Shown in pieces: positions 25,242-46,439 of a DNA stretch of 64,000 bases. The position numbers and the translations under genes were made by a program. Position 1 is the first letter of the stretch. Each line of letters opens with the position of its first letter. Below the pieces are notes generated by a model. That model was not told the origin of the DNA. It saw only the letters and a program-made list of their open reading frames with translations, and did not search any database. The stretch is taken from positions 124,001 through 188,000 of the forward strand of contig NZ_JAUPED010000003.1 in the NCBI RefSeq assembly GCF_030552475.1, in the 5' to 3' direction. This DNA comes from Mariniflexile sp. AS56. GTDB lineage: Bacteria > Bacteroidota > Bacteroidia > Flavobacteriales > Flavobacteriaceae.

Positions 25242-25310
25242 AAATGGGCATTGATTTATTTTAAATGGTTCATGGTTTATACAAAACCAATTCAAGTATT
25301 TTTATAATTG
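25242..25310 (+). promoter_or_regulatory. PUL promoter A: tandem 21-bp repeat plus -7 element
   Basis: Two direct repeats begin at 25242 (AAATGGGCATTGATTTAT) and 25263 (AAATGGTTCATGGTTTATAC). TATAATTG at 25303-25310 starts exactly 40 bp after the second repeat. The flavobacterial -7 consensus is TAnnTTTG. The same layout with the same spacing occurs before 33479, 35260 and 46001. Likely HTCS operator and promoter of the GH88 operon. Confidence 0.7.
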
Positions 25311-25376
25311 TAGTATAGGTTATATTTTGTAAGTATCTTACTAAATGTATATGTTTCAATTATAAAAAGTTACAGC

Positions 25377-26597
25377 ATGAAGGTTTTTAAAATTATTTTA
25401 TCAAGTGTTTTAGTTTCTTTCCTTTTAATGAATTGTGGTAAAGGAAAAAATGAATCGACTAAAGCAAATTCAGAAAGTGTACTCGATCAAAATGTTGTTA
25501 AGATAAAACGCGTTTTAAAGTCTTTGGATAGTGCCGATCGTTTCGCTAGAAATATTCCCAAGGGACAACAGCACTGGAAAACCGTAGGTGTTAAAGATTG
25601 GTGTAGTGGTTTCTGGCCAGGTGTTTTATGGTATGCTTATGAGCATTCAGGAAACGATTCTATAAAAAAAGCAGCCGAAAAATTTACAGCACCCATAAAA
25701 ACAATTGCTTTTTCTCCAGCAGAAGATCATGATATTGGGTTTATGGTGTACTGCAGTTATGGTAATGGCTATAGATTAACAGGAAATGAAGCTTATAAAG
25801 AGGTGATGTTGGCTGCGGCCGATACCTTAGCCACTTTATACAACCCCATAGTAGGTGCCATTCAGTCTTGGCCTTCAAAAAAAAATAAATACCCACACAA
25901 CACCATCATTGATAATATGATGAATTTGGAGTTGTTATTTTGGGCTTCCAAAAATGGTGGTGATAAAAGCCTTTATGACCTTGCTAAACGTCATGCCGAA
26001 GTAACCATGAAACATATTGTGAGACCAGATAGCGCCGTGTATCATTTAGGTGAATTTAATGATAAAACAGGTGCGTTTATTAAAGGCCATACACACCAAG
26101 GTTATGCCGATGAGTCTATGTGGGCTCGAGGGCAAACCTGGGGCATTTATGGTTTTGCAGTCGCTTATAGAGAAACGGGTGAACAGGCGTTTTTAGATAC
26201 GTCTATCAAATTGGCCGACCATTTTTTAAACAGGTTACCAGAAGATGGTATTCCTTTTTGGGATTTTGACGATCCACGTATCCCGAACGCCCCTAAAGAT
26301 GCCTCTGCAGCTGCTATTGCGGCTTGTGGTATGTTTGAAATTGCTAATATAATTTCAGATGAAAAGTTAAAAGCTAAATACAATAATGCCGCTAAAAAAT
26401 TCGTAGAAATTCTTTCTTCTGATACTTATTTAAGTGGAAAGGCTAATGATGCTTTATTGTTGCATTCAACAGGACACCATCCTAAAGGTTCAGAAATTGA
26501 TGTGCCTATTATCTATGCCGATTATTATTTTATGGAAGCATTATTGCGACTAGAAAAACTGGAGGCATCCACTAGTAATATTGGTAAAAGTCACTAA
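25377..26597 (+). CDS. GH88 unsaturated glucuronyl hydrolase, lipoprotein (copy 1)
   Basis: A 406-residue (alpha/alpha)6-barrel enzyme that removes the 4,5-unsaturated uronic acid left at the non-reducing end by polysaccharide lyases. The lipobox is near residue 20 (LLMNC). The two catalytic aspartates typical of the family are visible as Asp119 in HDIGFMVYCSYGNGYRL and Asp179 in IIDNMMNLELLFWA. It heads the first PUL operon, 174 bp after the HTCS gene, under promoter A. A close paralogue lies at 33479. GH105 is a related family, but the motifs and length fit GH88. The presence of lyases in the same locus supports the role. Confidence 0.9.
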   Translation: MKVFKIILSSVLVSFLLMNCGKGKNESTKANSESVLDQNVVKIKRVLKSLDSADRFARNIPKGQQHWKTVGVKDWCSGFWPGVLWYAYEHSGNDSIKKAAEKFTAPIKTIAFSPAEDHDIGFMVYCSYGNGYRLTGNEAYKEVMLAAADTLATLYNPIVGAIQSWPSKKNKYPHNTIIDNMMNLELLFWASKNGGDKSLYDLAKRHAEVTMKHIVRPDSAVYHLGEFNDKTGAFIKGHTHQGYADESMWARGQTWGIYGFAVAYRETGEQAFLDTSIKLADHFLNRLPEDGIPFWDFDDPRIPNAPKDASAAAIAACGMFEIANIISDEKLKAKYNNAAKKFVEILSSDTYLSGKANDALLLHSTGHHPKGSEIDVPIIYADYYFMEALLRLEKLEASTSNIGKSH

Positions 26598-26610
26598 AAG
26601 ATAAGATACT

Positions 26611-27477
26611 ATGAGACATTTTAGAATCTTACTGTGTGCATGTGCTTTATTAATCACGCCTCAATTTTTTTACGGACAAACCATTCCATATAGCATAGGG
26701 AGAATTGTAGTGAGTTCTGATGGGAATGAACACGATCATGACGATTGGGCAGCAACGCCCTTTACATTAGCTCTATTGGCTGCTCAAAACTTGCAAGATA
26801 GCCTAACGGTTTACACCTTTAGTGATCATATTTGGGGGAGTAATCACAATAAAAGTGATGGTAAAAAGCAAATGCTTATAAGTGCTTTAGAGGGCAAAAA
26901 GATATTTCAATTTAAAAAATCTAATTTTATTGAAGCGGTTCAAGATTCCACGAAAGCCATAAACGCTATAACTGCCGAGATTGATAAATCCAGTAAAAGC
27001 AATCCTTTAACTATTATTGCAGCAGGCCCTATGCAGGTTGTTGGAAGTGCTATTCATCATGCCGATGCGACTAAACTGAAATTCGTCCGTATTATTTCGC
27101 ATTCAAACTGGAATGATAGACATTCTGATAAACCATATGAATGGGAACAGCATTCCGGTTGGACTTGGGATGAAATCAAAGAAAAATTTGAATCCAAAGG
27201 ATTGATTGTAGACAGAATAGTCGATCAAAATGGAGGTGAAGATTATGAAGGAATGAAAGCACCTAGACATATGTTCGATTGGATTAAAACATCACCCATT
27301 CGTAATGGTTCTTCAGAAACTCAAAAACAATTGGATTGGCTTTATGAAAGACAACTTACTTGCATCAAAAAAGGAGATTTTGACCCTTCAGATGCTGGTA
27401 TGATTATCTATTTACTCACAGGTAAACAAAAAACCAACCCATATGATGCTAAAACGATTATTGAAAACCGTTTTTGA
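26611..27477 (+). CDS. Secreted nucleoside-hydrolase-like protein
   Basis: A 288-residue protein with a signal peptide ending near FFYGQ. The N-terminus has VVSSDGNEHDHDDWAATPF, which recalls the DxDxxxDD calcium-binding loop of the inosine-uridine nucleoside hydrolase fold. TIIAAGPMQVVGSAI also fits the TxxxxGP(L/M)TNxA segment of that fold. It lies 13 bp after GH88, between carbohydrate enzymes and under a PUL promoter, so cleavage of an N- or O-glycosidic bond in the polysaccharide is more likely than nucleoside salvage. It does not match a CAZyme family I can name. The fold assignment is moderate; the reaction is unknown. Confidence 0.6.
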   Translation: MRHFRILLCACALLITPQFFYGQTIPYSIGRIVVSSDGNEHDHDDWAATPFTLALLAAQNLQDSLTVYTFSDHIWGSNHNKSDGKKQMLISALEGKKIFQFKKSNFIEAVQDSTKAINAITAEIDKSSKSNPLTIIAAGPMQVVGSAIHHADATKLKFVRIISHSNWNDRHSDKPYEWEQHSGWTWDEIKEKFESKGLIVDRIVDQNGGEDYEGMKAPRHMFDWIKTSPIRNGSSETQKQLDWLYERQLTCIKKGDFDPSDAGMIIYLLTGKQKTNPYDAKTIIENRF

Positions 27478-27532
27478 TTAGTGATTTTAATTACTTTTAG
27501 TAGACAACATGTTCAACTAAACCAAATTTTAA

Positions 27533-28282
27533 ATGAAAAAAACACGAATAATGCATCTGCTTATAGTGTTACTATCGATGTCTTTAATTTACTGTAAAGC
27601 ATCAAAATCTATAGAGACTAGACCTGTTGTAATTCTAAATAAAGGTGTTGGTGGTAACACAACCGCCGATTTATTAAAAAGATTACAAGTAGATGTTATA
27701 GATGAAAAACCAGATTTGGTAATACTCATGATAGGTACTAACGATATGTTGAATTCAAGAAAAATGATTTCTTACGAGACTTATAAATCGAATTTAACCC
27801 GCATTGTAAATACGATCAAAAAGAATAAATCTGAAGTTTTATTAATGGGGTCTCCCACAGTAGATAGTGTGTATTTATTTGAAAGACACGACAAGAATTT
27901 GTTTAAAGAAACTCCCAATAAAAAAATTGATACGGCCATTGACATGGTGAAACAAGTAGCCATCGAACAAAACGTGCTGTTTTTTAATTTAAATCAATCC
28001 TTTAAGACTAAAGAGTTACCCAAACATAATGAAGATTTATACATTAGAAATCCTAAGAACAGTAATGCGAAAGATGGGGTGCACCCAACGCCTTTAGGCT
28101 ATAAATTTATAGCGGAAGAACTTTATAACTTCCTTTCCAAAGAAGGTCTAGTCCATAAATATACTAAAATAATTTGCTTTGGCGATTCCATTACAAAAGG
28201 TTCTGGTGCAAAAGGAGGAGGGACTGTAACGGGAGAAAACTATCCGTCCTTTTTAAATAAAATGATTAATAATTTAAATTAA
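27533..28282 (+). CDS. Circularly permuted SGNH/GDSL hydrolase, probable carbohydrate esterase
   Basis: A 249-residue lipoprotein (SLIYC near residue 21). The SGNH blocks appear in a rotated order. Block II glycine (NKGVGGNT) is at about 36-43, block III Asn70 is in IGTND, and block V Asp181/His184 is in DGVHPTPLGY. Block I with the catalytic serine comes last, at Ser219 in FGDSITKG. In normal SGNH enzymes block I is first. The C-terminal segment also carries GGTVTGENYPSFLNKMI, which normally follows block I. No second GDS motif exists near the N-terminus. It is probably an acetylesterase acting on the PUL substrate. The catalytic set is complete, so it is likely active. Confidence 0.85.
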   Translation: MKKTRIMHLLIVLLSMSLIYCKASKSIETRPVVILNKGVGGNTTADLLKRLQVDVIDEKPDLVILMIGTNDMLNSRKMISYETYKSNLTRIVNTIKKNKSEVLLMGSPTVDSVYLFERHDKNLFKETPNKKIDTAIDMVKQVAIEQNVLFFNLNQSFKTKELPKHNEDLYIRNPKNSNAKDGVHPTPLGYKFIAEELYNFLSKEGLVHKYTKIICFGDSITKGSGAKGGGTVTGENYPSFLNKMINNLN

Positions 28283-28293
28283 TTACATTGAAA

Positions 28294-28320
28294 AAATAGC
28301 AAGCAATGGCTTTGCTATTT
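28294..28320 (+). terminator. Possible weak terminator after the SGNH hydrolase gene
   Basis: AAATAGCAAGC pairs with GCTTTGCTATTT with one bulge. No U-tract follows, so termination would be partial at best. The rest of the 138-bp gap holds a degenerate PUL-type repeat and TATAATTA at 28343-28350, too weak to call a promoter. Confidence 0.35.
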
Positions 28321-28420
28321 ATAATCAATAAGCTCTTGATATTATAATTACTTACTAAAAGGCTTCTTTTCGAGTACATGAAAAAAAAATAACTGAAGTC
28401 CTTCAAATTAATTTTATAAA

Positions 28421-30937
28421 ATGAATTATATCAAATTAAAATCCAAAAAATTATCAAAGCATTTACTTATAGGTGCCATGTGTTCTTTCATAACAGCCAT
28501 CAGTTTTGCAAATTCTAAACCATCAAAAGGTGTTTTAAGTAGTTCTTTGCAAACCCAGTCAGCTAAGGTTAACGAAACCATAACTTATAGTTTTCAGTTT
28601 AAAAATGTTAAAAGTACTTCGGAAACCTACTATTTAAGTCTGCGAAACCCTCGAGAATTGGCTTGTGAAAATATTCTGAGTGATTCTAAAATCAGTTTAG
28701 AACCTCATGCAGTGCATCATGGTACGTTAAAGGTTATGATAAGCGATAGAATGTCATTGGGTAGCCATGAAGCGAGTGTGGTTGTGGTTAAAAATGAATT
28801 GGGAGATGAATTAGAAACTTTAGAGTTCATTTCAGTACGGTCAAAACCACATCCGTTTTTGTTAGTAACCGATGATGTATTTGAAGAAGCAAAACAGAAG
28901 ATAGCGCAATACGATTGGGCAAAGCAAAATTTAGATAACATGCTTAAACAACTTGATGGTTTCAAGTTTCCTCTGCGTGAAATTATTACCAAACCACGCC
29001 CAACAAAAGTGTGGTCTAGTTTAAATTATAGTGCTAGTGATGGTGAAAAAGCCTTTCAGTTGGCATTGGCCTATAAGTTAACAGGAAAGGAAGCTTATAA
29101 AAATAAAGTGATTGCTTTAATAAAAGCCGTTTGCGATAAAGAACAAGGTTATTTATCTATTGGGGCAGCCACTAATGGGGTGCAAGTGCACGAGGGGAAC
29201 TTCTTTCTGTTTTTATCGGCGGCCTGCGATATAGTTTATAACGAGCCAGAACTTTCTACAACAGATAAAACAAATATAGAAGCTAGCTTCCGTTATTATT
29301 TAGAATTGAATAAAAAGCACATGGATGGTTTGGGTATTATGAATCACCAAGCTAGTGCTAATGCAGGAGCTATATTTGTTGCACTGTTTTTACAAGATAT
29401 TCCAGAATTGGAGTATTTAACAGAAGCGGATGGCGGAATGGCAGACCAAATAGGCAAAGGTGTTATGGCAGATGGCTGGTGGTTTGAAGGTACAGCCAAC
29501 TATTGTTATTTGGTAGTACAACGTTATTCTTTGGTAGCACAAGCTTTTGAAAATTACGGAATGGATTTATACCACAGACGCTTTCCTGTTAAATTTAAAA
29601 GTAGAGATTTTGATAACGTGAAAGAAGGTTTTGCGGGTATGAAATTTGATAATTGGGGACCTACCGGGAAAAATACACGGGGTCTGGAAGATATGGTAAC
29701 ACCCTATGTGCCTTTTATGGATGAAAATGCTTATTTGGTATCTACCAACGATTCCGACTTAAAGGAGCCGAATGAATTTTATGAATTAGCATATCGTGAA
29801 TATAAATTAGACAATTTAGCTTGGGTAATTAGTAAAACAAAACGAGAATCGTGGGTGTCTTTAATGTATGGCGTTCCAGAATTACCTGAAATCGAAGATC
29901 CAAGAACTGGATCCGATTATAGAGAAAATATAGGCTTAGTTGCATTACGCTCACAAAAAGAGGTTAAAACCCCAGAAAATCAAATTCAAGCTTATGTGAA
30001 ATATGGAACACATGGTGGTTGGCATGGTCAATTTGACCGCGCAAGTTTGGTGGCTTTAGATCGTTATGGGCATAAATATTTTGGAACCGAAATGGTCTGG
30101 TTTGGTTATGGCAATCCTGGATATAAAGAATGTGTGCAAACTTCTGCAACTCACAATATGGTTGTGGTAGATGCTTTACAACAAGAAGCCGTTCCGTCAG
30201 AGCAGTTGCTTTTTTATAAAGGCGATATCATGCAAGCATCGGTCGTAGAAACCAATGCGAGATGGCGCAAAATACCAAGTTGGAATGCAAATAAGTTTCC
30301 GCCATGGGATGATACCGATTATGAGCCTGATATGAACCCTATTCAACAAAGACGTTTGTCTATTGTTACAGATGATTATGTGATTCTTGCCGATTATATG
30401 AAATCAAACCAAAAACACACGTACGATTGGTTGATACATCCTGTCGGTTTTTCATCCATTGAAGGTGCTAAAAAGAAAGGTGCTGTTTTAGATAAATTAA
30501 GTACAGTCAATGATTCACCTTATAAATATTTTGAAAAAGCCCAATGGTATACATCAAAAAAAGGCACGAAGGTTCAGTTTGATGAAAACGGAATGAAACT
30601 AGATGTGCATACGCTTTGGCCAAGAAAAGCTGAAGTTTTAATAAGTAATTACCCCAACGGAGGGAAACAACGCGATATTAGAAATAATCCAAACCGAAGA
30701 ACCTATGGGGTTCGTGTACATGATAAAGAAGCTGTTTTTCTTAGTTTGATAGAACCTTATAAAGGAACCTCGGCCATAAAAAGCATGTCATCTTCATCTG
30801 AAAATACTATTACAGTTGAATTACAAGATGGTCGTATACAAACATTAAGCATTCAAAACTTGAAGGGTGATGTTCCGCAGGTGAAAATTATCGAAATGGT
30901 TCAAGGGAAGGTTTCAAAAACCGAATCAACCAATTAA
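28421..30937 (+). CDS. Heparinase II/III-type polysaccharide lyase (first of three)
   Basis: An 838-residue secreted protein. A beta-sandwich-like N-terminal region (about 30-140) is followed by an alpha-helical toroid (about 145-460, with GLGIMNHQASANAGA) and a beta-sheet heparinase II/III-like domain (about 500-830, with THGGWHGQFDRASLVAL and TSATHNMVVVDAL). The layout and the H/N/Y-rich motifs fit lyases that cleave uronic-acid polymers by beta-elimination. Products would be trimmed by the two GH88 enzymes. I cannot assign a CAZy family. Its best-matching partner in the locus is not obvious: the other two heparinase-type proteins resemble each other more. Confidence 0.75.
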   Translation: MNYIKLKSKKLSKHLLIGAMCSFITAISFANSKPSKGVLSSSLQTQSAKVNETITYSFQFKNVKSTSETYYLSLRNPRELACENILSDSKISLEPHAVHHGTLKVMISDRMSLGSHEASVVVVKNELGDELETLEFISVRSKPHPFLLVTDDVFEEAKQKIAQYDWAKQNLDNMLKQLDGFKFPLREIITKPRPTKVWSSLNYSASDGEKAFQLALAYKLTGKEAYKNKVIALIKAVCDKEQGYLSIGAATNGVQVHEGNFFLFLSAACDIVYNEPELSTTDKTNIEASFRYYLELNKKHMDGLGIMNHQASANAGAIFVALFLQDIPELEYLTEADGGMADQIGKGVMADGWWFEGTANYCYLVVQRYSLVAQAFENYGMDLYHRRFPVKFKSRDFDNVKEGFAGMKFDNWGPTGKNTRGLEDMVTPYVPFMDENAYLVSTNDSDLKEPNEFYELAYREYKLDNLAWVISKTKRESWVSLMYGVPELPEIEDPRTGSDYRENIGLVALRSQKEVKTPENQIQAYVKYGTHGGWHGQFDRASLVALDRYGHKYFGTEMVWFGYGNPGYKECVQTSATHNMVVVDALQQEAVPSEQLLFYKGDIMQASVVETNARWRKIPSWNANKFPPWDDTDYEPDMNPIQQRRLSIVTDDYVILADYMKSNQKHTYDWLIHPVGFSSIEGAKKKGAVLDKLSTVNDSPYKYFEKAQWYTSKKGTKVQFDENGMKLDVHTLWPRKAEVLISNYPNGGKQRDIRNNPNRRTYGVRVHDKEAVFLSLIEPYKGTSAIKSMSSSSENTITVELQDGRIQTLSIQNLKGDVPQVKIIEMVQGKVSKTESTN

Positions 30938-30946
30938 AAAAATCTA

Positions 30947-33238
30947 ATGAAAAAAATCGTTTACATTATAACATTTTTAAGTGTTTTAATAAGTGAATCA
31001 CAAGTTGTAACCCAAATTAATTGGCCTGAATTTATGGCACAACACGATTTGGTTTGGGAAGAAATACCGAAGCAATGGAATGAAGGTGCCTTTGTTGGTA
31101 ATGGTCAAGTTGGGATGATGGTTTATGCAAATTTAGATGATAACCGATTGGACTTTCATGTGGGGCGTCAAGATGTAACCGATCACCGTAAAGCTCCCAA
31201 TAAAAAAACATCGATGAATGTTAAAGGTGCTAATCTATTTGATTATTCACGTCTGGACATTGGGCGGATGGTGTTGCGCCCCGTTGGAAAAATTTTAGAT
31301 ATGAAATTTCGTCAAGATTTATGGAATGCGGAAATTAGAGGAACGATTATCACAGATTTGGGTGAAATTACGCTTAGAGCATTTACACCTTATGACCGCA
31401 TGTTGAATGTGATTGAGGTGACTTCAACGGAAACAAGAGCAAATCAATCTGTAAATTATAAATGGGAATGGTTACCTGGTTTACCTATTTCACCCCGTAT
31501 TATTGCCAAACCAGAGACTTTGAAAACTAATGAATATCCACTTAATCCAAAACCAGAATTAAAAACTATTGATGGTGTTCAAGTTTGCGAACAGTCTTTA
31601 TTGGCTGGTGGTGATTATGCAACAGCCTGGTCTAATAAAGATTCAAAAAACAACAGTTCTACCATGTATATTGCTGTTGCAAATGAAATCCCTGCAAGTC
31701 ATGTTTCTGGAAAAGTAGCTGCGAAAATAGTAGTAGATGCTGCTTCGGTTTCACTGAAAACTTTGGAAGAAGCACATAGAAACTGGTGGCATACTTATTT
31801 TCAAAAGTCATTTTTATCGGTACCAGACGGTCGTATGGAGTCTTTTTACTGGATTCAAATCTATAAAATGGCGGCTTGTTCACGTGCTGATGGTCCTGTA
31901 TTAGATTTGTTAGGCCCTTTTTTGAAAAACACCAGTTGGCCAGGGTTGTGGTGGAATTTAAATGTACAATTAACGTATTGGCCTTTTAATGCGAGTAACC
32001 ATCTTGATATTGCGGAAAACTTCATCACATTAATTGATGATAATTTCGATTTCATGTTGCCTAATAAAAGTGGTAAGAACTTTGGAGATTTCGCCTGGGC
32101 GATGCATAACTATTGGTTAATTTATAGATATAAAGGGGATGAGGTCGCTATTCGAGATAAATGGATGCCAAAAGCGAAGCAAATAGCCAAGGTGTATGAA
32201 TCTAAAATGATTAGAAATGCCGAAAATAAAATAGAGTTAACAGATATGGGCTCGCCGGAATATGGCGGTTTTAAAGCCTTTCCAAATACAAACTATAATC
32301 TCGCTTTGGTGCGCTGGTTGTTAAATACCTTAGTAGAAACGAGTGAAACCTTTCAATTAAACACCGTTGAAGTAAAAAAGTGGAAAGGCATTTTATCTGA
32401 TTTGATTCCATATCCAGAAGATGAAAATGGATTAATGATTGCTAGCAACCAACCTGTGGATATATCACATAGGCATTATTCGCATTTACTTGGTCTGTAT
32501 CCTTTATTTCAATTAAATCCAGATGATGCTAAGGTTAAAGAACTGGTGGATAAATCGGTGGTGCATTGGCATAAAATAGATAATAGTAAAGGTTTAGTGG
32601 GCTATTCTTATACGGGGGCAGCTTCTTTGTATGCCGCTTTAGGACGTGGAAATGATGCCAACCAGATGCTTCAACAGTTTCTAGATGGTGATATTCAAAG
32701 TGCGATGTTGTTGCCTAATACGTTTTATATGGAGGGGCATGGACGTAACCCAGTTATTGAAACACCGCTAAGTGCCGCATCAAGTATTTTGGAGTTGTTT
32801 ATTCAAAGCTGGGGAGAAAAAATTCGTGTATTTCCTGCGTCTCCAGATAGTTTTGAAGCTGTCAGTTTTAAGGAACTAAGAGCAGAGGGCGGTTTTTTGG
32901 TGAGTGCTTCTCGTAAAAATGGTCTAACAGAATTTGTGGAAATTGAAAGTCTAGTTGGTAGTTCATGTACTGTGAAGATTAGCGATTGGAGTGAGGCTGT
33001 GCAAATTTCCGAAGGACGCCACATTGATATTATTAAAGTAGGAAGTGATGAGTTTCGAATTAATCTCAAAAAAGGGGAGCGCATTACCATGGCATCAAAT
33101 AAATCTACAAAAGCTGAAATTCGAGTTATTCCACACCCCGCGGATGAAATCAATTTATATGGTGTAAAACAAGGAAAATCATATACAGAGGTTTATGAAT
33201 ATCCAGTGCCTTCTTTTAATTTACCAGAAAAAAAATAA
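30947..33238 (+). CDS. GH95-like (alpha/alpha)6 glycoside hydrolase
   Basis: A 763-residue protein with a signal peptide. The N-terminal region (EEIPKQWNEGAFVGNGQVGMMVYANL) matches the start of GH95 and DUF5703-type proteins. It is followed by an all-helical catalytic-type domain with WWNLNVQLTYWPFNASNH, SHRHYSHLLGLYP and a C-terminal beta domain. The segment that in GH95 fucosidases reads roughly IDGNFG is here YMEGHGRNPVIETPLS, so the catalytic set differs and the specificity may too. It starts 9 bp after the lyase gene. alpha-Fucosidase or alpha-galactosidase activity is possible given GH29 downstream. Confidence 0.6.
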   Translation: MKKIVYIITFLSVLISESQVVTQINWPEFMAQHDLVWEEIPKQWNEGAFVGNGQVGMMVYANLDDNRLDFHVGRQDVTDHRKAPNKKTSMNVKGANLFDYSRLDIGRMVLRPVGKILDMKFRQDLWNAEIRGTIITDLGEITLRAFTPYDRMLNVIEVTSTETRANQSVNYKWEWLPGLPISPRIIAKPETLKTNEYPLNPKPELKTIDGVQVCEQSLLAGGDYATAWSNKDSKNNSSTMYIAVANEIPASHVSGKVAAKIVVDAASVSLKTLEEAHRNWWHTYFQKSFLSVPDGRMESFYWIQIYKMAACSRADGPVLDLLGPFLKNTSWPGLWWNLNVQLTYWPFNASNHLDIAENFITLIDDNFDFMLPNKSGKNFGDFAWAMHNYWLIYRYKGDEVAIRDKWMPKAKQIAKVYESKMIRNAENKIELTDMGSPEYGGFKAFPNTNYNLALVRWLLNTLVETSETFQLNTVEVKKWKGILSDLIPYPEDENGLMIASNQPVDISHRHYSHLLGLYPLFQLNPDDAKVKELVDKSVVHWHKIDNSKGLVGYSYTGAASLYAALGRGNDANQMLQQFLDGDIQSAMLLPNTFYMEGHGRNPVIETPLSAASSILELFIQSWGEKIRVFPASPDSFEAVSFKELRAEGGFLVSASRKNGLTEFVEIESLVGSSCTVKISDWSEAVQISEGRHIDIIKVGSDEFRINLKKGERITMASNKSTKAEIRVIPHPADEINLYGVKQGKSYTEVYEYPVPSFNLPEKK

Positions 33239-33339: not shown

Positions 33340-33408
33340 AAAAGGGTTTTAATTTATTGAAAATGATTCATAGTTTATATCAAAAAAAAGGAAGTGTTTA
33401 TATACTTG
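33340..33408 (+). promoter_or_regulatory. PUL promoter B: tandem repeat plus -7 element
   Basis: Half-sites begin at 33340 and 33361 (AAATGATTCATAGTTTATAT). TATACTTG at 33401-33408 is 40 bp after the second half-site, as at promoter A. The downstream half-site is much better conserved than the upstream one. Drives GH88 copy 2. Confidence 0.68.
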
Positions 33409-33478: not shown

Positions 33479-34708
33479 ATGAGAATTTTTAAACTTACTT
33501 CAGTGGTTATTTGTATAGCGTTCCTGTTATCTTGTAATAATCAAGACAAAAAGAAAAGTGGAGATACCGCTATGGTAACTGCAAAAACAAATGAAGAGGT
33601 CGTACTTGATAAAAGTGTAGCTAAAATTAAAAGTGTTTTAGGAAGTTTAAAGGAAGCGGATAGTTTTCCTAGAAATATTACTAAAGGAAAAAAGGAATGG
33701 AATAAAGTAGGCGTTAGAGATTGGTGTTCTGGTTTTTGGCCTGGTGTTCTTTGGTATGCTTATGAATTTTCGGGTGATGAAGCTATTAAAAAAGGGGCTG
33801 AGAAATTTACAGAACCTTTAAAAACAATCGCTTATACACCAGCAGATAATCATGATATTGGTTTTATGGTATACTGCAGTTATGGTAACGGATATAGATT
33901 AACAGGTAATGAAGAATACAAAAAAATATTACTTGCTGCTGCTGATACGTTAGCAACACTTTACCATCCAAAAGCGGGAACTATTTTGTCATGGCCAGAA
34001 ATGAAACATAAATTTGGACATAACACCATTATTGATAACATGATGAACTTAGAGCTTTTATTTTGGGCAGCTAAGAATGGTGGCGATAAAAAATTATATG
34101 ATTTAGCTAAGAGTCACGCAGATGTTTCAATGAAATATTTGGTACGTCCAGATTATTCTATTTATCATGTGATTTCTTTTGATGATAAAACAGGTGAATT
34201 TGTTAAAGGTGCTACCCACCAAGGATACGCAGACGAGTCTATGTGGGCCAGAGGTCAAGGTTGGGGAATCTATGGTTTCGCCATGTCTTATCGCGAAACA
34301 GGAGATGAAGCCTACCTTAAAACATCTCAAAAATTGGCAGACCATTTTATAGCACGTTTACCAGAAGATGGTATTCCTTACTGGGATTTTGATGATCCTA
34401 AAATTCCAAATGCACCTAAAGATGCTTCGGCAGCAGGTGTAGTTGCTTGTGGAATGTTAGAGTTGTCTGAGCAGTTGGAAGATAAAACCTTAAAAGAAAA
34501 GTATTTTAAAGCAGCAAAAGCATTAATTACACAATTAGGGTCTGATGCTTATTTTAGTGGTGATACCAATGATGCCCTGTTGTTACATTCTACAGGACAT
34601 TATCCTAATAATTCAGAAATAGATGTGCCTATCATTTATTCCGATTATTACTTTATGGAAGCCTTATTAAGATTGAAGAAAATAGAGAGTAAAAATATAG
34701 AGAGTTAG
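33479..34708 (+). CDS. GH88 unsaturated glucuronyl hydrolase, lipoprotein (copy 2)
   Basis: A 409-residue paralogue of the protein at 25377, with lipobox LLSC near residue 19. The catalytic aspartates are Asp126 (HDIGFMVYCSYGNGYRL) and Asp186 (IIDNMMNLELLFWA). The two copies differ in the substrate-facing segment after the second aspartate (RPDYSIYHVISFDD here, RPDSAVYHLGEFND in copy 1), which may reflect different sulfation or linkage preferences. It has its own operator-promoter and its own terminator, so it is a single-gene transcript. It releases unsaturated uronic acid from lyase products. Confidence 0.9.
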   Translation: MRIFKLTSVVICIAFLLSCNNQDKKKSGDTAMVTAKTNEEVVLDKSVAKIKSVLGSLKEADSFPRNITKGKKEWNKVGVRDWCSGFWPGVLWYAYEFSGDEAIKKGAEKFTEPLKTIAYTPADNHDIGFMVYCSYGNGYRLTGNEEYKKILLAAADTLATLYHPKAGTILSWPEMKHKFGHNTIIDNMMNLELLFWAAKNGGDKKLYDLAKSHADVSMKYLVRPDYSIYHVISFDDKTGEFVKGATHQGYADESMWARGQGWGIYGFAMSYRETGDEAYLKTSQKLADHFIARLPEDGIPYWDFDDPKIPNAPKDASAAGVVACGMLELSEQLEDKTLKEKYFKAAKALITQLGSDAYFSGDTNDALLLHSTGHYPNNSEIDVPIIYSDYYFMEALLRLKKIESKNIES

Positions 34709-35004: not shown

Positions 35005-35073
35005 AAATGAGTCATAAATTAAATAGAATGGCTCATAAGTTACATTAAATACTTGTTATTATTTATAAAATTG
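35005..35073 (+). promoter_or_regulatory. PUL promoter C: tandem repeat plus -7 element before susC-1
   Basis: Two direct repeats begin at 35005 (AAATGAGTCATAAATTAA) and 35026 (GAATGGCTCATAAGTTAC), with 15 of 21 positions shared. TAAAATTG at 35066-35073 is again 40 bp after the start of the second repeat. Transcription would begin near 35080, giving an untranslated leader of about 180 nt. Confidence 0.68.
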
Positions 35074-35082
35074 CATCAGAAA

Positions 35083-35116
35083 TTCTAATCAATAGTTTGA
35101 AAGCTATTGATTAGAA
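35083..35116 (+). promoter_or_regulatory. 5'-terminal hairpin of the susC-1 mRNA
   Basis: A perfect 13-bp stem (TTCTAATCAATAG / CTATTGATTAGAA, eight-base loop) begins only a few bases after the transcription start predicted from promoter C. No U-tract follows. A hairpin at the very 5' end commonly protects an mRNA from decay. Confidence 0.6.
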
Positions 35117-35150
35117 AATTGTCATTATTAACATTATAACAAATAAAGCT

Positions 35151-35259: not shown

Positions 35260-38200
35260 ATGTATAAAAGTAGTAAATTAAAAAAGTTGTCTATGAAGCC
35301 AGTTATGTTATTGGCTTTATGGTTGAGTTTTTCATTTAGCGGGGTATATGCGACTACAGCAGCTCCAGTAGATGATCAAAACAAAACAGTAACGGGTACA
35401 GTCGTGAGTGCTGATGATAGTATGGGGATTCCTGGTGTAAACGTTATGGTAAAGGGTACAAGTATTGGTGCTGTTACAGATTTTGATGGAAACTATTCTG
35501 TTAATGTACCATCAAACGCTAGCGTTTTAGTATTTTCTTATTTAGGGTATGTAACGCAAGAAATAACAGTAGGTGGTAACAATACTGTAAATGTTTCTTT
35601 AAAATCAGATCTTACAGCTTTAGATGAGGTTGTAATTGTTGGTTTTGGTACACAGAAGAAAGCAACCCTAACAGGTTCGGTAACCCAAGTAAAGGGAGAA
35701 GATATAATGAGAGGTAAGGGGTCGTCAAGTGCTGCCTTAGCTTTACAAGGAGAAGTTCCTGGATTGGTGATTACTCGTACTTCATCGCGACCAGGAAACG
35801 AAGGAACTGGTATTCAAATTCGTGGAGATATTTCAGTAAATGGAATTAGTCCATTAATATTGGTAGACGGTTTAGAAATACCAGAATGGCAGCTATCTAC
35901 AATAAATGCAAATGATATTGAGAGTTATTCTGTGTTGAAAGATGGTGCAGCGGCTATTTATGGTACAAAAGCAGCAGGAGGTGTTATATTGGTTACTACT
36001 AAGAAAGGTAAACAAGGTAAAATGAAAATTAGTTATTTAGGAGAAACTCAAGTGAATTTTTCTGGAGATATGCCTGTTGCTGGTATGCAAGAATGGGGTC
36101 AATTATATTTACAGACGCTTAATAATGACACCTTCTCTTATTTAGATAACAATGGTGCAACACAACAATCAACAGGGACGCTTAGACTTGGGTTAACTAG
36201 AGAAAATTACGAAGCAATTGCTAATGGTACATTTCCTGTAGCACCAGATACCTTCTTTCTGGGTAGTAAAGAGCATCGTTTTGCTGATGTTGACCAGTTT
36301 GATGCTGTATTTGGGACTACAATATCTAAAAGACATAACCTGTCCGCATCTGGAGGAAACGAAAACGCTACGTATAGAACCTCTCTTGGTTATGCGAATG
36401 AACGTTCTCCAATAGATTTTGTTTATGATGGGGCTAAGAAATATAATTTTCGAACCAACCTTACTTATAAAGTAAATGATTTAATAAAAACGGAATTTAA
36501 TATATCATACGATAATCGAGTTGTAGATGAGCCTACTCTAGGTGTTGGTGAATCGATAAATGACATGAATATTTTTCCTTTGTATAACCCACAAGGTCAA
36601 TATTATGATATTTTTGGAGGAAACAATATCCTTTCTAGATTAGATGAGGGAGGACGTACCGTTACTGATGAGAAAATATTCCGTTTAGGTGCTAAATTAA
36701 CCTTAGATTTAGATAAGTACGCTAAAGGTTTGTCTCTTACTTATTTTGGTAATATGAGTTCACGTAATGGTCTTAGAACAGAAAGAAAGAAGTCTGTAAC
36801 TAATTACGATTGGTTTGGAGACAGTAGCCAAGGAGTAAGTAATAACACCTTATTGAACTCTTATGTTAAACTGTATGAAACTCAGGTGGATTTTCAAAAT
36901 CATGTTGTTCAGGCTAATTACGACCGTTCATTTGGAAAACATAATGTATCGGCCTTAATCGGGTTTACAGGAGAGGAACAGCAGTCGAATAGGTATTATA
37001 CTGCCCGATCAAACATGGCGTCTGATGGTTTAGATGACATTAATACAGGTGATATTACCACACAAGTTACAGGAGGTTCTCCCAATAATTCAAATGGTAC
37101 TAGGTTTAATTCTGGAGCAGATGCTATAGGACTTGTATCGTATATTGGAAAAATAAACTATGACTTTGATGGAACTTTTCTTTTAGAAGCTTTGGGTCGT
37201 AGAGATGGTTCTTCTCGTTTACACCCAGATTTTAGGTATAAAAACTTCTATGCAGGTTCAGCAGGTGTTAATTTACATAAATTAGATTTTGTTGATAATT
37301 TAGATGTTTTCGACAATTTAAAATTATACACGTCGTATGGTGAAACTGGTTCTGTAACTGGTATTGGAGCTTATGATTATATTTCTGAAATAAACACTGG
37401 TTCAAGTATATTTGGAGCAGATCCGTCACAAAGTAACACAGCCTGGATTGGTAGTTTAGTATCTACAGATCGTACATGGGAGCGTGTTGCAACAACCAAT
37501 TTTGGAGTTGACTTTTCTGTGTTAGATCGTCGTTTAGGTGGTGTGGTAGAGGTTTTTAATCGTAAAAATAACGATATGTTAATTTCTATTACTTACCCTC
37601 AAGTACTAGGAGCTACAGCGCCTAAAACCAATAGTGGTGATTTTACCAGTAATGGTTGGGAAGTTTCTTTAAACTGGAAAGATCAAATAGGAGACTTTAA
37701 GTATAGAGTAGGTGTAATGGTTTGGGATAGCAAGAGTGAGATAACCCGTATGGATGGTTCTACTTCTATTTCTCCTGGAGAAAATAGAACTATTGAAGGA
37801 AGGCCTCTTAATTCCATTTTTGTATACAAAACAGATGGTTTTTTACAAAATGATCAAGAAGTACTAGATTATTATAATGACCTTGGGTTTATTGACCAAG
37901 CAGATCAAACTAAAATGAAGACAGGATCATTAATTCCTGCTTACAGAACTCTAAATCGTTTAGTGCCAGGTAGTGTAAAACGTGTAGATGTTAGCGGTGA
38001 CGGAAATATTACTACAGATGACTTGGTTTATTTTGGTGATGCCAATGCTCATAACAGCTTTGGTATCAATCTTGGCTTTGAGTATAAAGGCTTTGATTTT
38101 AGCGCATTCTTTCAAGGTGTTGGAAAACAAAATATTGTTCGTACACAAACATTGGCTTATCCTTGGCGTCGTTGGTGGCAAAACCAAAATATTTCTTATA

Positions 38201-38541: not shown

Positions 38542-38561
38542 TTAAATAAAAAATCAAGAAT

Positions 38562-40439: not shown

Positions 40440-40489
40440 TAGATATATAAAAAGATAATTTTAGAATTATTTTGAGTTAGTCACTCATA

Positions 40490-40524: not shown

Positions 40525-40901
40525 GTTAACAGTTGCAGATTGCATTTGAAAACTTATGAATTATATTTAGAATGGTGTTGAAGAGATTGAACTTGTTTAT
40601 TGTCGTTTCACATTATGTTGAGTCCTTCTGCTTTTAGTATTTGAGTATGTTTCGGATTTTTTATTGGTAGTTTCAGGATGAAAACTTTGAGAATAAGTTA
40701 AATAATGGTGTGTTAAGTAAACTGGCTTAATTACTATTAATATTAGTTTTTAAGGATGTAATGATGTTGTTTAATCTTAGTTTAAGTTTATCTAGTTTGT
40801 GGATAGTTCATGCTCCTATTAGGCGAGTTTATGGTTGTTGTACTTTAGTAAGGATTTTAGTAGTTCATAATACTTTATAATAAAAAAGTATTATGGTGTT
40901 T

Positions 40902-40942
40902 AAAAAAAAAAAACAGCTGTAAACTTAGATAGTTTACAGCTG
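40902..40942 (-). terminator. Rho-independent terminator after susD-2 (minus strand)
   Basis: CAGCTGTAAACT / AGTTTACAGCTG, a 12-bp perfect stem with a five-base loop. On the minus strand it is followed by about twelve Us. It ends the susC-2/susD-2 transcript. Confidence 0.93.
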
Positions 40943-40989
40943 CTTGAATACTAAAATGGACTAACTCAAATAATTTTAGTATACTTTAA

Positions 40990-42762
40990 TTAATAGCCTG
41001 GGTTTTGTAACAAGTTATCATTTGTATTGAATAAAGACGTTGGTAATGGGTGTAAATAATTGTTTCTATCAAAGTTACGTACAGATTCTGGCTCTAATAA
41101 AATACATCTTCTTGGACCTACGGCTGTTGTTGCTGTTTTTTCTCCATAGATATAAGAACCAGGTGTATAAAGCGCGGTATTTCCTTCGTAGGCCGTACCT
41201 TCTATAACAGCACCAAAAATATCTTGATTGAGTTCTTGTTCAGCAAGACCCCAACGGCGTAAATCATTATATCTGGAATTCTCAGCATAAAGTTCAATCG
41301 TACGTTCTCTTCTAATTTCTGTTTTTAGGTCCATACCATTTAGAGTTAAAAAGGTATTGTTCATTGCAGGTAGTCCAGCTCTTTCTTTTACTAGGTTTAT
41401 CGATTCGTTCATTTGTGCATCGGTTAGCCCTCCATTTAACTCATACAAAGCTTCGGCATAAGTTAAATATACTTCAGCTAAGCGTATGTATGGTAAATCT
41501 GGAGATTCTGTATAAGAATCTCTGTATACAGGCCATTTCCAAGACACGAATTTTGAATTATAATAACCGTAGTTTTCTTGTCCTGTTAAAAGTACTGAGC
41601 CGTCTTCTGGTATTTCATGGGTTGCATTATTGGTGAAATAAGCACGCATTCTGTAATCACGGTTTTGGTATTCGTCGGATGCATTTGTATAACCTTGGAA
41701 TCTTGGCGACTTATCTATTGGTAAGCCATCATCTGCTAAAAACAGGTCTATCATTTTTCTTGAAGGTAGTAACCTTCCTACTGATGTGTGACTTAATAAA
41801 GCTCTACCTTGTCTTAAAAGGAAATCGTATTTACCATAAAAGATATATTCGTTATTTGAAGACTTGTCTAATCCAGCTGGGTTCGATTCACTATCCTCAA
41901 GCATAAATAAGTAATAAGAACTCATGTTATCTAACACATCATTATGGTTCCAAAGTTCGAAACCACCTTGATCCATTACTGTTTTGGATGCTGTTACCGC
42001 TTCTTGTAAATATAAGTCGATGTTGGCTGCATCAAAGCCTGTACTACCCGCTCCAGAAGCAACACCGTCACCATCTGTAGTAATGCCTACATATCTCATC
42101 CAAGTAGCTTCATGCAGAAGGATTTTAGCTTTAAAAGCCATAGCTGCCCATTTGCTGATTTTACCTTTGTCTGTAGAACTAATATCTTGCTCACGAGGTA
42201 AGCCTGCGATGGCATCATTTAAATCGGTTAAAACTTGAGCCACTACTTCGTATCTACTGTTTCGTGGGCTATTGGCTTCTTCAGAATCAACATCTAGCGA
42301 TCGAGTTACGATGTTAACACCTCCAAAACGTTGTACTAAAGCGAAATGATGATAAGCTCTAAAAAACTTAGCGACTGCTACATATTCTGAAATATCGCTA
42401 GCATCACCACTGAAATTAGCAGCTCTTTCAATTAAAAGATTGATGTCGCGAAGTGCTGTATAAGCATCGTTGTAAAAATCATCAGTTACGGGAGCAAAAG
42501 AATCACCTCGACTGTAAGTTTGAATAGGTGAATCTTCTTTGTAACCTGTTAAATCTGAAGCATGATCGAGAAAATCTCCCAATGCCGTCCAAGGTAATAA
42601 ATCGGTGTAAAACTTATTAGAGCCTGTTTTGAAATGCTCAATTTCGGTGTAATATACTGCGTCCGTAATTTTACCTGGTGGGGTTAAATTTATAAAATCC
42701 TCTTCACAAGCTGTAAAGAATAGCATGGCGCAGGGCAGTATTATATATATTAATTTTTTCAT
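40990..42762 (-). CDS. SusD-like surface glycan-binding lipoprotein (PUL pair 2)
   Basis: A 590-residue lipoprotein with lipobox FFTAC near residue 19. SusD motifs are AKFFRAYHHFALVQRFGGVNIVTRSLD, RNSRYEVVAQVLTDLNDAI, LPYIRLAEVYLTYAEALYEL and TEIRRERTIELYAENSRYNDLRRWG. It follows its SusC after 41 bp on the minus strand and converges on SusD pair 1. It is related to that protein, which supports an old duplication of the SusCD pair inside the locus. Confidence 0.95.
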   Translation of the reverse strand: MKKLIYIILPCAMLFFTACEEDFINLTPPGKITDAVYYTEIEHFKTGSNKFYTDLLPWTALGDFLDHASDLTGYKEDSPIQTYSRGDSFAPVTDDFYNDAYTALRDINLLIERAANFSGDASDISEYVAVAKFFRAYHHFALVQRFGGVNIVTRSLDVDSEEANSPRNSRYEVVAQVLTDLNDAIAGLPREQDISSTDKGKISKWAAMAFKAKILLHEATWMRYVGITTDGDGVASGAGSTGFDAANIDLYLQEAVTASKTVMDQGGFELWNHNDVLDNMSSYYLFMLEDSESNPAGLDKSSNNEYIFYGKYDFLLRQGRALLSHTSVGRLLPSRKMIDLFLADDGLPIDKSPRFQGYTNASDEYQNRDYRMRAYFTNNATHEIPEDGSVLLTGQENYGYYNSKFVSWKWPVYRDSYTESPDLPYIRLAEVYLTYAEALYELNGGLTDAQMNESINLVKERAGLPAMNNTFLTLNGMDLKTEIRRERTIELYAENSRYNDLRRWGLAEQELNQDIFGAVIEGTAYEGNTALYTPGSYIYGEKTATTAVGPRRCILLEPESVRNFDRNNYLHPLPTSLFNTNDNLLQNPGY

Positions 42763-42803
42763 TTGGATATATTTTATTTTTTATTAAACGCTAATTAATG
42801 GGG

Positions 42804-45800
42804 TTATAATGATAGTTTTATACCAAAAGCCCAAGTACGCATGAATGGATAAGCACTGGCGTTAGAATTGGCCTGTGATTCTGGATCGTAACCATCTTTT
42901 ACAGAAGTTAATTCGAATAAATCATTTCCTGAAAAGTAAAGTCGTAGCGTATTAATTGGTGTATTCCCGATTTTTAAGTCTTTTATATTGTACCCAACAA
43001 TAAGAGATTTCAATCGGAGGTACCTGTTATTTTGAAGCATGAAATCTTTATCTTGGTAATTCCATTCCGCTAAGGTACTATTTGTAGTTAATCTTGGGAA
43101 TTCTGCGTTCGGTGTTTCTTCTGTCCATGTGCGTCCTAACCAAGTACTAGATTGGTTTTGCCACACTCTAATAAATGGTCGGCTGAAATACCCCGTTCTT
43201 AGTACATTGTGGTCTATCGCTCCTTGGAAAAAGGCACTCACATCGAAATTTTTATATTTTGCATCTAAATTTAAACCGTAAACATAATGCGGTGCAGAAT
43301 CGCCTTTATATACTAAATCTTTAGTATCAATAACTTTATCTCCGTTGGTATCTACAATACGTGTATCTCCTGGACGTAAAGCCGCAGCTGAAGTTTGTGA
43401 AGGTAAATTTCCACCAGGATTAAGACTGTTGTAATACTCGGTTACTTCTGCTTGGTCTTTAAAATAACCAGCAGTTTCCCACATGTAAAATGGATTAATT
43501 GGTTGTCCAGTAATGTTTTCACCATCACTTGAGCTGTTTAGTCCAGCGACAATCGATTCAGCCCCTTCGTATTTGGTTATTTCGTTTCTAGAATCACTCA
43601 TGTTAGCGCTAATTCCAAGATCAAAATCTCCAACTTTATCTCTCCATCCTAACATAACTTCCCAACCGTTAGTTTGAAAACTTCCTATATTGGTAAATGG
43701 AGCTTGTGGAGCAACAATTGGGTTAATAATACCTTTAAGTAGCATGCCTTTATTGTCTTTCTGAAAAATGTCTACCGAACCAAATAGTTTGTGGTTAAAT
43801 AATTTAAAATCTACTCCAACTTCTTTGGAGATAATACGTTCCCAAGTCGTGGTTAAACTGAATAAATCGCTAGCACTAGAGGTGGCTTGTAGAGCTGCGC
43901 TAGTTCCAAATATTGTTGTTCCATTTAAACTAACAGTAGATAAGTAGCCGAAATTATCAATACCTGATGTACTTCCTAACTCACCGTAACCACCTCTTAT
44001 TTTTAAGAAGGATACGATGTCGCTATCTTTTAAGAAATCTTCTGAGCTTAGTACCCAACCACCAGAAACACTTGCGTAGTTAGACCATTTTTTACCATCG
44101 GCAAATCTTGAACTTCCGTCACGTCTGCCTTGTAATTCAAATAAGTATTTACCTTTGTAGTCATAGTTTAAACGACCGATATAACCGTAAGATCCCCAAG
44201 TGTTTCCACCACCTTCTGTTTGAATGGCTTGATCAGTAGCACCTAAATCTAAATCGTATACTCCGTAATCAACAAAACCATTTCTTCTAGCTCTAAGACC
44301 TTTAGATGTGTTTATATCTGCTTCGATTGCTAATAGTCCTGAAACGTTATGATCTCCAAAACTATTACTATAATTTAAAGCGCCTTTGTAGTTCTTGTAT
44401 GTAATACGGCCTGTTTCTTCTTCAATATACGATTGGCTATTAATTTGAGCCGGAGCTACATCTCCAAACCAGTTGTAAGTTGGTACTGTTAATTGGTATA
44501 TTTGATTTTCAGTATTTTGTTCACTAACCGCATAAGATCCTGTTATACTTAAATTATCGGTTAATTTGTATTCTGCTAATGCCGATATTTTAACCTGCTT
44601 CGCTATTTTGTTTTCACGACCACCATCAATAACTCTGGCTACAGAGTTTCTAGCGCCGGCAATATTACCTCCGAAGTTCCCGTACCATTGTCCTAAAGAG
44701 TTTCTAGAAGCAAAAATAGGAGGATCGTAAGTTGTAGCTTCACGATCTAAACCTCCAGAAGGACCTGAAAATTTAGTATGAAAATAGGTTACGTTAGTGC
44801 TTATTTTTAACCTTTCAGAAACGTTAACTCCATAATTTAATGAGAAATTGTAACGGTCTTTACTGTCGTCTGCAACTTTTAATCCACCTACATTTTCATC
44901 ATATCCAGCAGCAATACGGAAGTTGCTTTTATCGCTACCACCAGAAATACTAATGTTTTGTTGTTGAGAATAGGAATTACCGAACATTTCATCGAATCTG
45001 TTAGAATCACTAATGTATACATCTCCCAAAGCATTCGGGAAATTATAGATACCTTCTTCTCCAGCAGCAAATCTTTCTAAAGTTTCAGTTCCTCCCCAAG
45101 GTCCAAAATTTGGAGATGCATCTTGAGATGTTGCGGCTAACCATAGCGCTCCCCATTCTTTCATGGTAGGTGTTGGTGGGCGAATACCTATTGTTCCAAC
45201 ACGCAAAACAGAACTTACGTCTACTTTAATTTCTCCTTTTCCTTTTTTAGTGGTAACCAAAATAACACCACCAGCAGCACGTGAACCATAAACAGATGCC
45301 GATCCGCCTTTTAATACACTGATAGATTCAATATCATTAGGGTTCATATCGTTAAAAGACGATGCGTTTATTGCAGGAATACCGTCGATAACCACAAGCG
45401 GCTCTATGCCGTTAATCGAACTTGCACCACGAATAAGGAAATCTACACCTTCGTCACCTGGACGTGATGATGTACGAGATACAACTAAGCCAGGAGTTCT
45501 ACCTTGAAGCGCTAAAGCAGGGCTTCCAACAGCCAAGTCTTCAAAAACCTCAGACTTAATTTGCTCAATAGAGCCTGTTAAGGTTTCTTTTTTTGCTGTA
45601 CCATAACCAACAACCACTACTTCATCTAAAGCTTGAAGGTCTGATTTTAAAGATACATTCAATGAAGTATTGTTGCCTACAGTAATTTCTTGAGTTACAT
45701 ACCCTAAATAAGAAAAAACTAATACGCTTTGATTTGAAGGTACATTAACAGTGTAATTACCATCAAAATCGGTTACCGCACCATTTGATGTTCCTTTTAC

Positions 45801-46001
45801 AATAACGTTTACTCCTGGAATACCCATATTATCATCGGCACTTACTACTTGTCCAGAAATAGTTTTGTTTTGTTTAATGTCTGTAATTTTAATAGGGTCT
45901 GCGTACGCATGCGTAGCAGAAGCACATATTAAACAGCCTACTACCCAAAATAGGCTTACGAATTTTTTCAGATTTAACTGATTGTGGTTTAGTTTAGTCA
46001 T
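42804..46001 (-). CDS. SusC-like TonB-dependent receptor (PUL pair 2)
   Basis: A 1065-residue outer-membrane importer. The signal peptide ends near ASATHAYA. A carboxypeptidase-regulatory-like domain (about 47-130, KTISGQVVSADD), a plug with LDEVVVVGYGTAKK and YGSRAAGGVILVTTKKGKG, and the barrel follow. No STN domain. The first 130 residues resemble SusC pair 1 far more than the remainder does. It is transcribed leftwards from a divergent region shared with the 46471 operon, where a PUL-type operator faces each way. Two SusCD pairs suggest a substrate that yields two structurally different oligosaccharides. Confidence 0.95.
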   Translation of the reverse strand: MTKLNHNQLNLKKFVSLFWVVGCLICASATHAYADPIKITDIKQNKTISGQVVSADDNMGIPGVNVIVKGTSNGAVTDFDGNYTVNVPSNQSVLVFSYLGYVTQEITVGNNTSLNVSLKSDLQALDEVVVVGYGTAKKETLTGSIEQIKSEVFEDLAVGSPALALQGRTPGLVVSRTSSRPGDEGVDFLIRGASSINGIEPLVVIDGIPAINASSFNDMNPNDIESISVLKGGSASVYGSRAAGGVILVTTKKGKGEIKVDVSSVLRVGTIGIRPPTPTMKEWGALWLAATSQDASPNFGPWGGTETLERFAAGEEGIYNFPNALGDVYISDSNRFDEMFGNSYSQQQNISISGGSDKSNFRIAAGYDENVGGLKVADDSKDRYNFSLNYGVNVSERLKISTNVTYFHTKFSGPSGGLDREATTYDPPIFASRNSLGQWYGNFGGNIAGARNSVARVIDGGRENKIAKQVKISALAEYKLTDNLSITGSYAVSEQNTENQIYQLTVPTYNWFGDVAPAQINSQSYIEEETGRITYKNYKGALNYSNSFGDHNVSGLLAIEADINTSKGLRARRNGFVDYGVYDLDLGATDQAIQTEGGGNTWGSYGYIGRLNYDYKGKYLFELQGRRDGSSRFADGKKWSNYASVSGGWVLSSEDFLKDSDIVSFLKIRGGYGELGSTSGIDNFGYLSTVSLNGTTIFGTSAALQATSSASDLFSLTTTWERIISKEVGVDFKLFNHKLFGSVDIFQKDNKGMLLKGIINPIVAPQAPFTNIGSFQTNGWEVMLGWRDKVGDFDLGISANMSDSRNEITKYEGAESIVAGLNSSSDGENITGQPINPFYMWETAGYFKDQAEVTEYYNSLNPGGNLPSQTSAAALRPGDTRIVDTNGDKVIDTKDLVYKGDSAPHYVYGLNLDAKYKNFDVSAFFQGAIDHNVLRTGYFSRPFIRVWQNQSSTWLGRTWTEETPNAEFPRLTTNSTLAEWNYQDKDFMLQNNRYLRLKSLIVGYNIKDLKIGNTPINTLRLYFSGNDLFELTSVKDGYDPESQANSNASAYPFMRTWAFGIKLSL

Positions 46002-46050
46002 AAAAAATCTTTTAAAAAGTTCTTAAATTTGTGTTAATAATTTATATCAA

Positions 46051-46119
46051 CAAGGTTATAAAGAAATGCTTTTGGAGGGTCTAACTTATAACTCAAAACC
46101 TATTAATTATCGTCCTTTA
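46051..46119 (-). promoter_or_regulatory. PUL promoter D (minus strand) before susC-2
   Basis: Read on the minus strand, half-sites begin at 46119 (TAAAGGACGATAATTAAT) and 46098 (TTTTGAGTTATAAGTTAG). TAACCTTG at 46058-46051 starts 40 bp after the second half-site, the same spacing as promoters A to C. The half-sites are more degenerate here. This and promoter E account for most of the functional sequence seen in the 469-bp divergent gap. Confidence 0.55.
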
Positions 46120-46371
46120 TCATGTATTTGTAGGTTTTATCTTTCTTTAGATGTGGTTGAATTTTGGTTTTTTTAGTCGTTTTTAGTTTATGGTGAGTGT
46201 TACTTTATTTGATGCTTTCTATTTTGGTTATTTATTGATTTTAAGCAGGATATTTTGAGTAAAACAAAGTGAATTAAAAGGTGGAGAGTAATCTGGTGCT
46301 TTTTGTTTTTTATTTAGTAGAAAGGGAGGTTGTTACGGCTAATTATTAATTATTAATAGTAATTATGGGTA

Positions 46372-46439
46372 AAATGGTTAATAGGTTATAGATATTGAGC
46401 AATAATTTAGGTTCTTTTTTATAGGTATCTTATAGATTG
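46372..46439 (+). promoter_or_regulatory. PUL promoter E before the 46471 operon
   Basis: Direct repeats begin at 46372 (AAATGGTTAATAGGTTATAG) and, 21 bp later, at 46393 (TATTGAGCAATAATTTAG). ATAGATTG at 46432-46439 lies 39 bp after the second repeat, one base off the spacing of the others. It would start a transcript of at least eleven genes with a very short leader. Confidence 0.55.

Follow-up and report, generated by a model that had tools for sequence, protein, structure and literature searches.

Background

The I1 and I2 half-sites of AraC are spaced 21 bp apart. At E. coli araBAD they form a direct repeat for an AraC-type dimer, and the lower half-site overlaps the upstream promoter element (PMC7408454). 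Direct repeats averaging 21 bp have also been predicted for 16 hybrid two-component systems (HTCSs) of Bacteroides (Ravcheev et al. 2013, PMC3878776), and in B. thetaiotaomicron the similarity of the motifs was described to track that of the HTCS DNA-binding domains, with unlinked sites also reported (PMC3878776). Here we analyzed a 64,000-nucleotide stretch of Mariniflexile sp. AS56 (the window; C23:124001-188000 of a 4.65 Mb draft genome), where tandem 21-bp repeats follow an HTCS gene and lie upstream of transcription units of a polysaccharide utilization locus (PUL). Judged from sequence, these repeats are very probably the operators of the adjacent HTCS, serving about 24 promoters of a single catabolic cluster that spans 143 kb.

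The sites have the form of the B. thetaiotaomicron HTCS motifs, as far as these are described in PMC3878776, with two conserved sites that are repeated directly at a distance of about 21 bp and precede PUL units. They differ by occurring in Flavobacteriaceae, by their letters and by the presence of 24 sites in one 143-kb block, and their distance to the −7 element is fixed, whereas the part of PMC3878776 at hand makes no mention of such a distance. This kind of operator is already known from gut Bacteroides; what is new is the size of the regulon, the promoter spacing and the comparative test. In our judgement the regulon is unusually large; large single-HTCS loci are not new, since locus tags BT0977 to BT1030 are mentioned as a locus with a single HTCS (PMC3878776). 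The comparison with AraC extends to the position of the repeat, with a center near −52 as inferred from the −7 position versus −52.5 for AraC at araBAD, but AraC is a soluble sugar-binding regulator of a sigma-70 promoter with a −35 element, whereas here a membrane HTCS would act at a Bacteroidota −7 element without a visible −33 box (PMC7408454). Compared by gene families, the closest cluster is the mixed ulvan/fucoidan PUL of Maribacter dokdonensis 62-1, in which glycoside hydrolase (GH) families GH29, GH95, GH97 and GH141, lyases, sulfatases, kduI and fucose catabolic genes are likewise clustered (PMC8072126). The term HTCS does not occur in the text of that paper, the part of it at hand does not treat operators, and a partial literature search found no paper on HTCS operators in Flavobacteriaceae.

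Five tandem repeats in the window

An earlier note on this DNA had described five tandem 21-bp repeats, and all five could be located. S1 (25242..25283, plus strand, half-sites at 25242 and 25263) precedes a GH88-type gene at 25377, S2 (33340..33381, plus) a second GH88-type gene at 33479 and S3 (35005..35046, plus) the susC-like gene at 35260, while S4 (46078..46119, minus) precedes the susC-like gene at 46001 on the minus strand and S5 (46372..46413, plus) the gene at 46471. The five sites were aligned by hand and the register of S4 was chosen with the −7 distance in view; the leave-one-out scan ignored the −7 element and used a 19-bp half-site matrix from four sites with a fixed 21-bp offset on 127,922 positions of both window strands. 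Each held-out site was outranked solely by the training sites and thus stood above every non-site position. The weakest, S4, scored 15.6 when held out; overlapping registers of S3 and S1 followed with 13.8 and 10.2, and the best place unrelated to any site reached 9.1. Under the five-site model, scores were 28.7-39.9 for the sites and 12.8 (again an overlapping S3 register) and 9.5 for the best other positions. The half-site consensus is about AAnTGAAYnATAATTTATA, where positions 5 (G), 11 (T), 15 (T) and 17 (A) are invariant in all ten window half-sites. The claim that neither the redox region nor the DNA in front of the HTCS gene carries the repeat was borne out, as the best position listed in window 1-25241 reached 6.4 (at 5818), far below the range of S1-S5.

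One cluster of 24 sites

S1 to S5 are only the first of 24 sites on C23, which extend from 149242 to 292307 (143 kb), with 23 on the plus strand and S4 on the minus strand. The cluster starts 39 bp beyond the stop codon of the HTCS gene, and each site lies in a gap upstream of a reading frame, one of them overrunning the first ATG of the frame by 14 bp. With a model containing all 24 sites, every one of them matched at an expect value (E) ≤0.0014, whereas the best match outside had E = 0.27. The motif is thus not scattered at random intergenic places, an outcome of a genome scan that the earlier note had named as refuting its reading; all 24 strong matches fall in one cluster adjoining the HTCS gene. 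Besides the counted sites, the 36 rows of the C23 scan list comprised nine overlapping or opposite-strand registers of these sites and three separate weak places, at 129818 and, inside reading frames, at 304201 and 351954.

This was further supported by a profile of 40 sites from related genomes, which held no site of this genome. On the whole genome its best 21 rows (20 places) all fell in C23 149,243-275,691, including S1-S5; the first match elsewhere had E = 0.06 and the other four of the 24 sites came lower, at E 0.1 to 4. Because the window matrix had served to find these 40 sites, the recovery of S1-S5 is not independent, while that of the further sites is.

Two proposals of the earlier note have to be modified in the light of this cluster. 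The five window sites had been said to define the regulon; sites of this kind do appear to mark an HTCS regulon, but one about five times larger. They had also been said to accompany every PUL unit with room for a promoter, which goes too far: between S1 and the last site on the contig, 32 gaps in front of a reading frame measure 90 bp or more, of which 24 contain a site and eight do not. If the operator assignment is right, this would be a large and clean HTCS regulon, in which one sensor runs 24 promoters in a 143-kb block through an exact and testable DNA address. In such clusters co-regulation is often inferred from gene neighbourhood, and here promoter sites would define the regulon and its edges. 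At C23:250108-250155 (L268 4108-4155) the operator is read on both strands (E 1.2e-4 and 1.5e-4), forming an almost palindromic tandem.

Co-occurrence with the HTCS ortholog

An ortholog of the HTCS (at least 54% identity) was found in 14 of 299 sampled genomes of the family, counting this one; the other matches listed were at most 38% identical, apart from a paralog in the same genome (57%). The ortholog and site censuses were taken as one 299-genome sample, since size and handles agree. When a model made of this genome's 24 sites only was applied, at least two matches at E ≤0.003 were obtained in 14 genomes, and these were the same 14 that carry the ortholog (14/14 vs. 0/285). Leaving out the genome that supplied the sites, the numbers are 13 of 13 with the ortholog and none of 285 without. 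Adding relatives' sites to the model returned the same 14 genomes, together with eight single matches at E ≤0.001. In the scan of relatives that the earlier note had called for, all sampled genomes of the family that carry the ortholog had repeated sites, and no genome lacking it did. At E ≤0.1, 20 matches were counted in G173, 14 in G121 and 14 in G014, and as few as 3 in other relatives, all such per-genome counts being lower bounds (150 or 21 candidates were scored per genome). A genome of the same genus without the ortholog (G134) gave no site match.

Around 13 orthologs, 635 kb were scanned with the five-site matrix; of the 63 matches scoring above 8, 60 were intergenic, and so were all of the best 42. 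The gene order near the ortholog HTCSs is rearranged between genomes. In two genomes of the same genus (HTCS 83% and 81% identical) S1 and S2 have equivalents whose TTG lies at +45, counted from where the second half-site starts, while the flanks around S1 have diverged. Clustering beside the HTCS gene, co-occurrence with its ortholog, and a repeat spacing and −7 distance that are kept in relatives while the flanks diverge all support the HTCS-operator reading put forward in the earlier note.

Could the repeats instead be chance resemblances in AT-rich intergenic DNA? The AT-rich composition of the sites and the poor quality of some first half-sites (S2, S4) would fit this, but chance is hard to reconcile with the leave-one-out ranks over the window, the clustering in the genome, the conservation in relatives and the match with the ortholog census, and we reject it as virtually without probability.

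As a control, we scanned 13 genomes with HTCSs only 33-38% identical. Here one strong match was seen (G209, E = 9.4e-6) and the others had E ≥0.0048, while 10 of the 13 had at least one match at E ≤0.1. On the protein side, the recognition-helix regions GRSQFYRKI and GFNSxAYF hardly vary within the ortholog clade, which shares the operator, and have changed in the aligned HTCSs of 33-41% identity; this also speaks for the HTCS-operator reading.

Two single observations from these scans can be added. The strong match in G209, which lacks the ortholog, is at G209:C1:3391755-3391794. In G014, seven operator matches lie at C1:2268050-2309656, about 1.4 Mb from the only ortholog-grade HTCS of that genome, which suggests an unlinked second cluster under the same regulator.

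Promoter spacing

The earlier note had placed a −7 element 40 bp after the second half-site. Counted from the start of that half-site this is exact in four sites, with −7 elements TATAATTG for S1 (25303..25310, plus), TATACTTG for S2 (33401..33408, plus), TAAAATTG for S3 (35066..35073, plus) and TAACCTTG for S4 (46051..46058, minus), and in S5 the TTG of TATAGATTG (46431..46439, plus) is 1 bp closer. Among all 24 sites of this genome a −7 element with at most one mismatch was seen at +45 in 17 and at +44 in 3, as compared to a mean of 0.84 at other offsets. The distance is also visible in 52 non-overlapping sites of relatives scoring above 14.2, taken from the 13 ortholog surroundings and six named loci (L009-L014), where the −7 element played no part in the choice: 40 of them have TTG at +45 and 8 at +44, both counted from the start of the second half-site, and 4 have it at neither offset. 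Since these sites came from the window matrix, their half-site consensus leans towards it. When 44 sites, four of them from the window, were aligned, the column information was low outside the half-sites, with a rise at a TTnT 4-7 bp before the −7 element and high values in TAAmATTG. A −33 TTTG, searched for 17-27 bp upstream of the −7 element, was nearly absent (2 of 40 sites), and the second half-site would therefore occupy the position of a −33 box. Taking the −7 element as centered at −7, the dimer would be centered near −52.

A fixed distance to the −7 element could also be explained if the repeat were the upstream part of a promoter for a special sigma factor and not a regulator site. 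The repeat, though, consists of two equivalent copies two helical turns apart and reaches about 60 bp above the −7 element, the −7 element matches the housekeeping type of PMC7366714, and the presence of the repeat follows one HTCS ortholog exactly in 299 genomes. We therefore reject this explanation as very improbable, and operators of the HTCS remain the preferred reading.

Just below the S3 promoter, at window 35083-35117, a 15-bp perfect hairpin is predicted in the presumed leader of the susC-like gene 35260.

A model for activation and points against it

We propose that the HTCS would sense its inducing glycan, upon which its own receiver domain would be phosphorylated. The AraC-type domains may then dock as a head-to-tail pair on the two half-sites, two helical turns apart, with the downstream half-site at the would-be −33 position and its start 40 bp from a −7 element of the TAAmATTG type. 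RNA polymerase with the Bacteroidota housekeeping sigma factor could in this way be recruited to a promoter that lacks a −33 box, comparable to class II activation by AraC, and one HTCS would act so at about 24 promoters across the 143-kb catabolic cluster. The fixed −7 distance would be compatible with such a class II contact, as would the scarcity of TTTG, though −33 boxes may be rare in the family anyway. The fixed 40-bp step and the missing −33 box suggest how HTCSs may contact the Bacteroidota RNA polymerase.

Several observations weigh against the assignment of the repeats to this HTCS, or against parts of the model. The place at C23:304201 is a good match of the window matrix (24.9) inside a reading frame, the gaps without a site include one of 138 bp before 28421 in the window, and 4 of the 24 sites have no −7 element with at most one mismatch at +44 or +45. 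Single matches at E ≤0.003 occur in 11 of the 285 genomes without the ortholog where about 0.9 are expected, and G002 carries sites although its ortholog reads with one internal stop. The missing −33 box is weak evidence for class II activation, because a −33 motif was reported not to be identifiable in Flavobacterium johnsoniae generally (PMC7366714). Finally, the paralogous HTCS of this genome, on contig C9, is 57% identical overall and about 70% in the C-terminal domain, and might share sites with the HTCS of the window.

Another regulator, most plausibly this paralog, could accordingly bind the repeats alone or jointly. Its recognition-helix regions differ only slightly, at a few residues, and two window-matrix matches (15.6 and 12.3) are found in its own locus. 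The 24 sites, on the other hand, cluster beside the window HTCS and not beside the paralog, and the repeat in the paralog locus has the half-site 3' end AAGTTGGA in place of AATTTATA. No other transcription regulator matched among the 60 proteins scanned in C23:187-312 kb, which has 69 reading frames (of the nine left out, six cross stretch borders). We regard binding by another regulator as improbable, and keep the adjacent HTCS as the likely ligand of the repeats. The repeat in the paralog locus (L089 14566-14607, minus strand) has the same 21-bp and +45 TTG geometry. These very few sites hint that the operators of the two paralogs have diverged, i.e. that they may be insulated from each other.

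Repeat and spacing in other HTCS loci

Outside the ortholog clade, HTCS loci also show the 21-bp repeat. In a first set of 493 HTCS-locus promoters outside the clade, with 161 TAnnnTTG anchors and 1651 lag-by-position cells, strong matches were most numerous in the cells for lag 21 at positions −60 and −59 relative to the −7 element (5 anchors each), which is the geometry of the window; an exact TAnnnTTG at +40 to +46 was present in 5 of 41. Lag 21 stood out also when another 60 HTCS stretches, with 351 promoters, were used as an independent set; here 33 regions had at least 12/16 matches vs. 5-22 at other lags. In this second set the −7 distance was not replicated, as an exact TAnnnTTG at +40 to +46 was found in 0 of 32, and the top cells were lag 22 at −45 (by count) and lag 25 at −77 (by mean), with lag 21 at −58 among the next. 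Because of this failure we do not claim the −7 distance for all HTCSs. It is a tentative idea, which we hold to be rather less probable than its opposite, that all Bacteroidota HTCSs share one promoter geometry, with half-sites 21 bp apart and the lower one replacing the −33 box at a fixed −7 distance, and that this geometry here allows a single sensor to control a 143-kb pathway that leads from secreted enzymes to the catabolism of sugars. If it were true for all Bacteroidota HTCSs, PUL promoters and regulons would be readable from sequence across the phylum.

The HTCS gene and the content of the cluster

The HTCS gene (21033..25202, plus strand) encodes 1389 residues, with Reg_prop repeats, Y_Y_Y, HisKA, HATPase_c, Response_reg and HTH_18 matched above the Pfam cut-off, so that sensor repeats, histidine kinase domains, receiver and AraC-type helix-turn-helix (HTH_18, residues 1306-1381) are present in one complete chain. 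The CHIP residues, part of an interface motif described in PMC11253607, are at 1206-1209. Among named records the closest HTCSs are those of Maribacter and Flavobacterium (50-58% identity).

In the window, the genes 3' of the HTCS gene include two of GH88 type, two SusC/SusD pairs, a GH95-type gene, two sulfatases and GH97, as well as a heparinase II/III-type gene and GDSL-type and other esterases; some of the proteins show below-cut-off likeness in Pfam to alginate lyase, GH43 and GH141. Genes that straddle the window end or lie past it gave Pfam matches to a GH29 fucosidase, GH95, GH31, GH39 and two more SusC/SusD pairs, and there are also four alginate-lyase-type proteins, a heparinase-type protein, four sulfatases, two SASA esterases, CBM6 and type IX-sorted proteins. 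The substrate is likely a sulfated algal glycan containing fucose and uronate, when these families are compared with those described in PMC8072126. Below the site at C23:275633, the gene run C23:275749-291812 (L269, L270) encodes altronate/galactarate dehydratase, SDRs, FAA hydrolase, amidohydrolase, FMN dehydrogenase and KduI, and by its families reads as oxidative L-fucose and uronate catabolism. Since this catabolic run adjoins a site, the sensor may control central sugar breakdown beside glycan capture.

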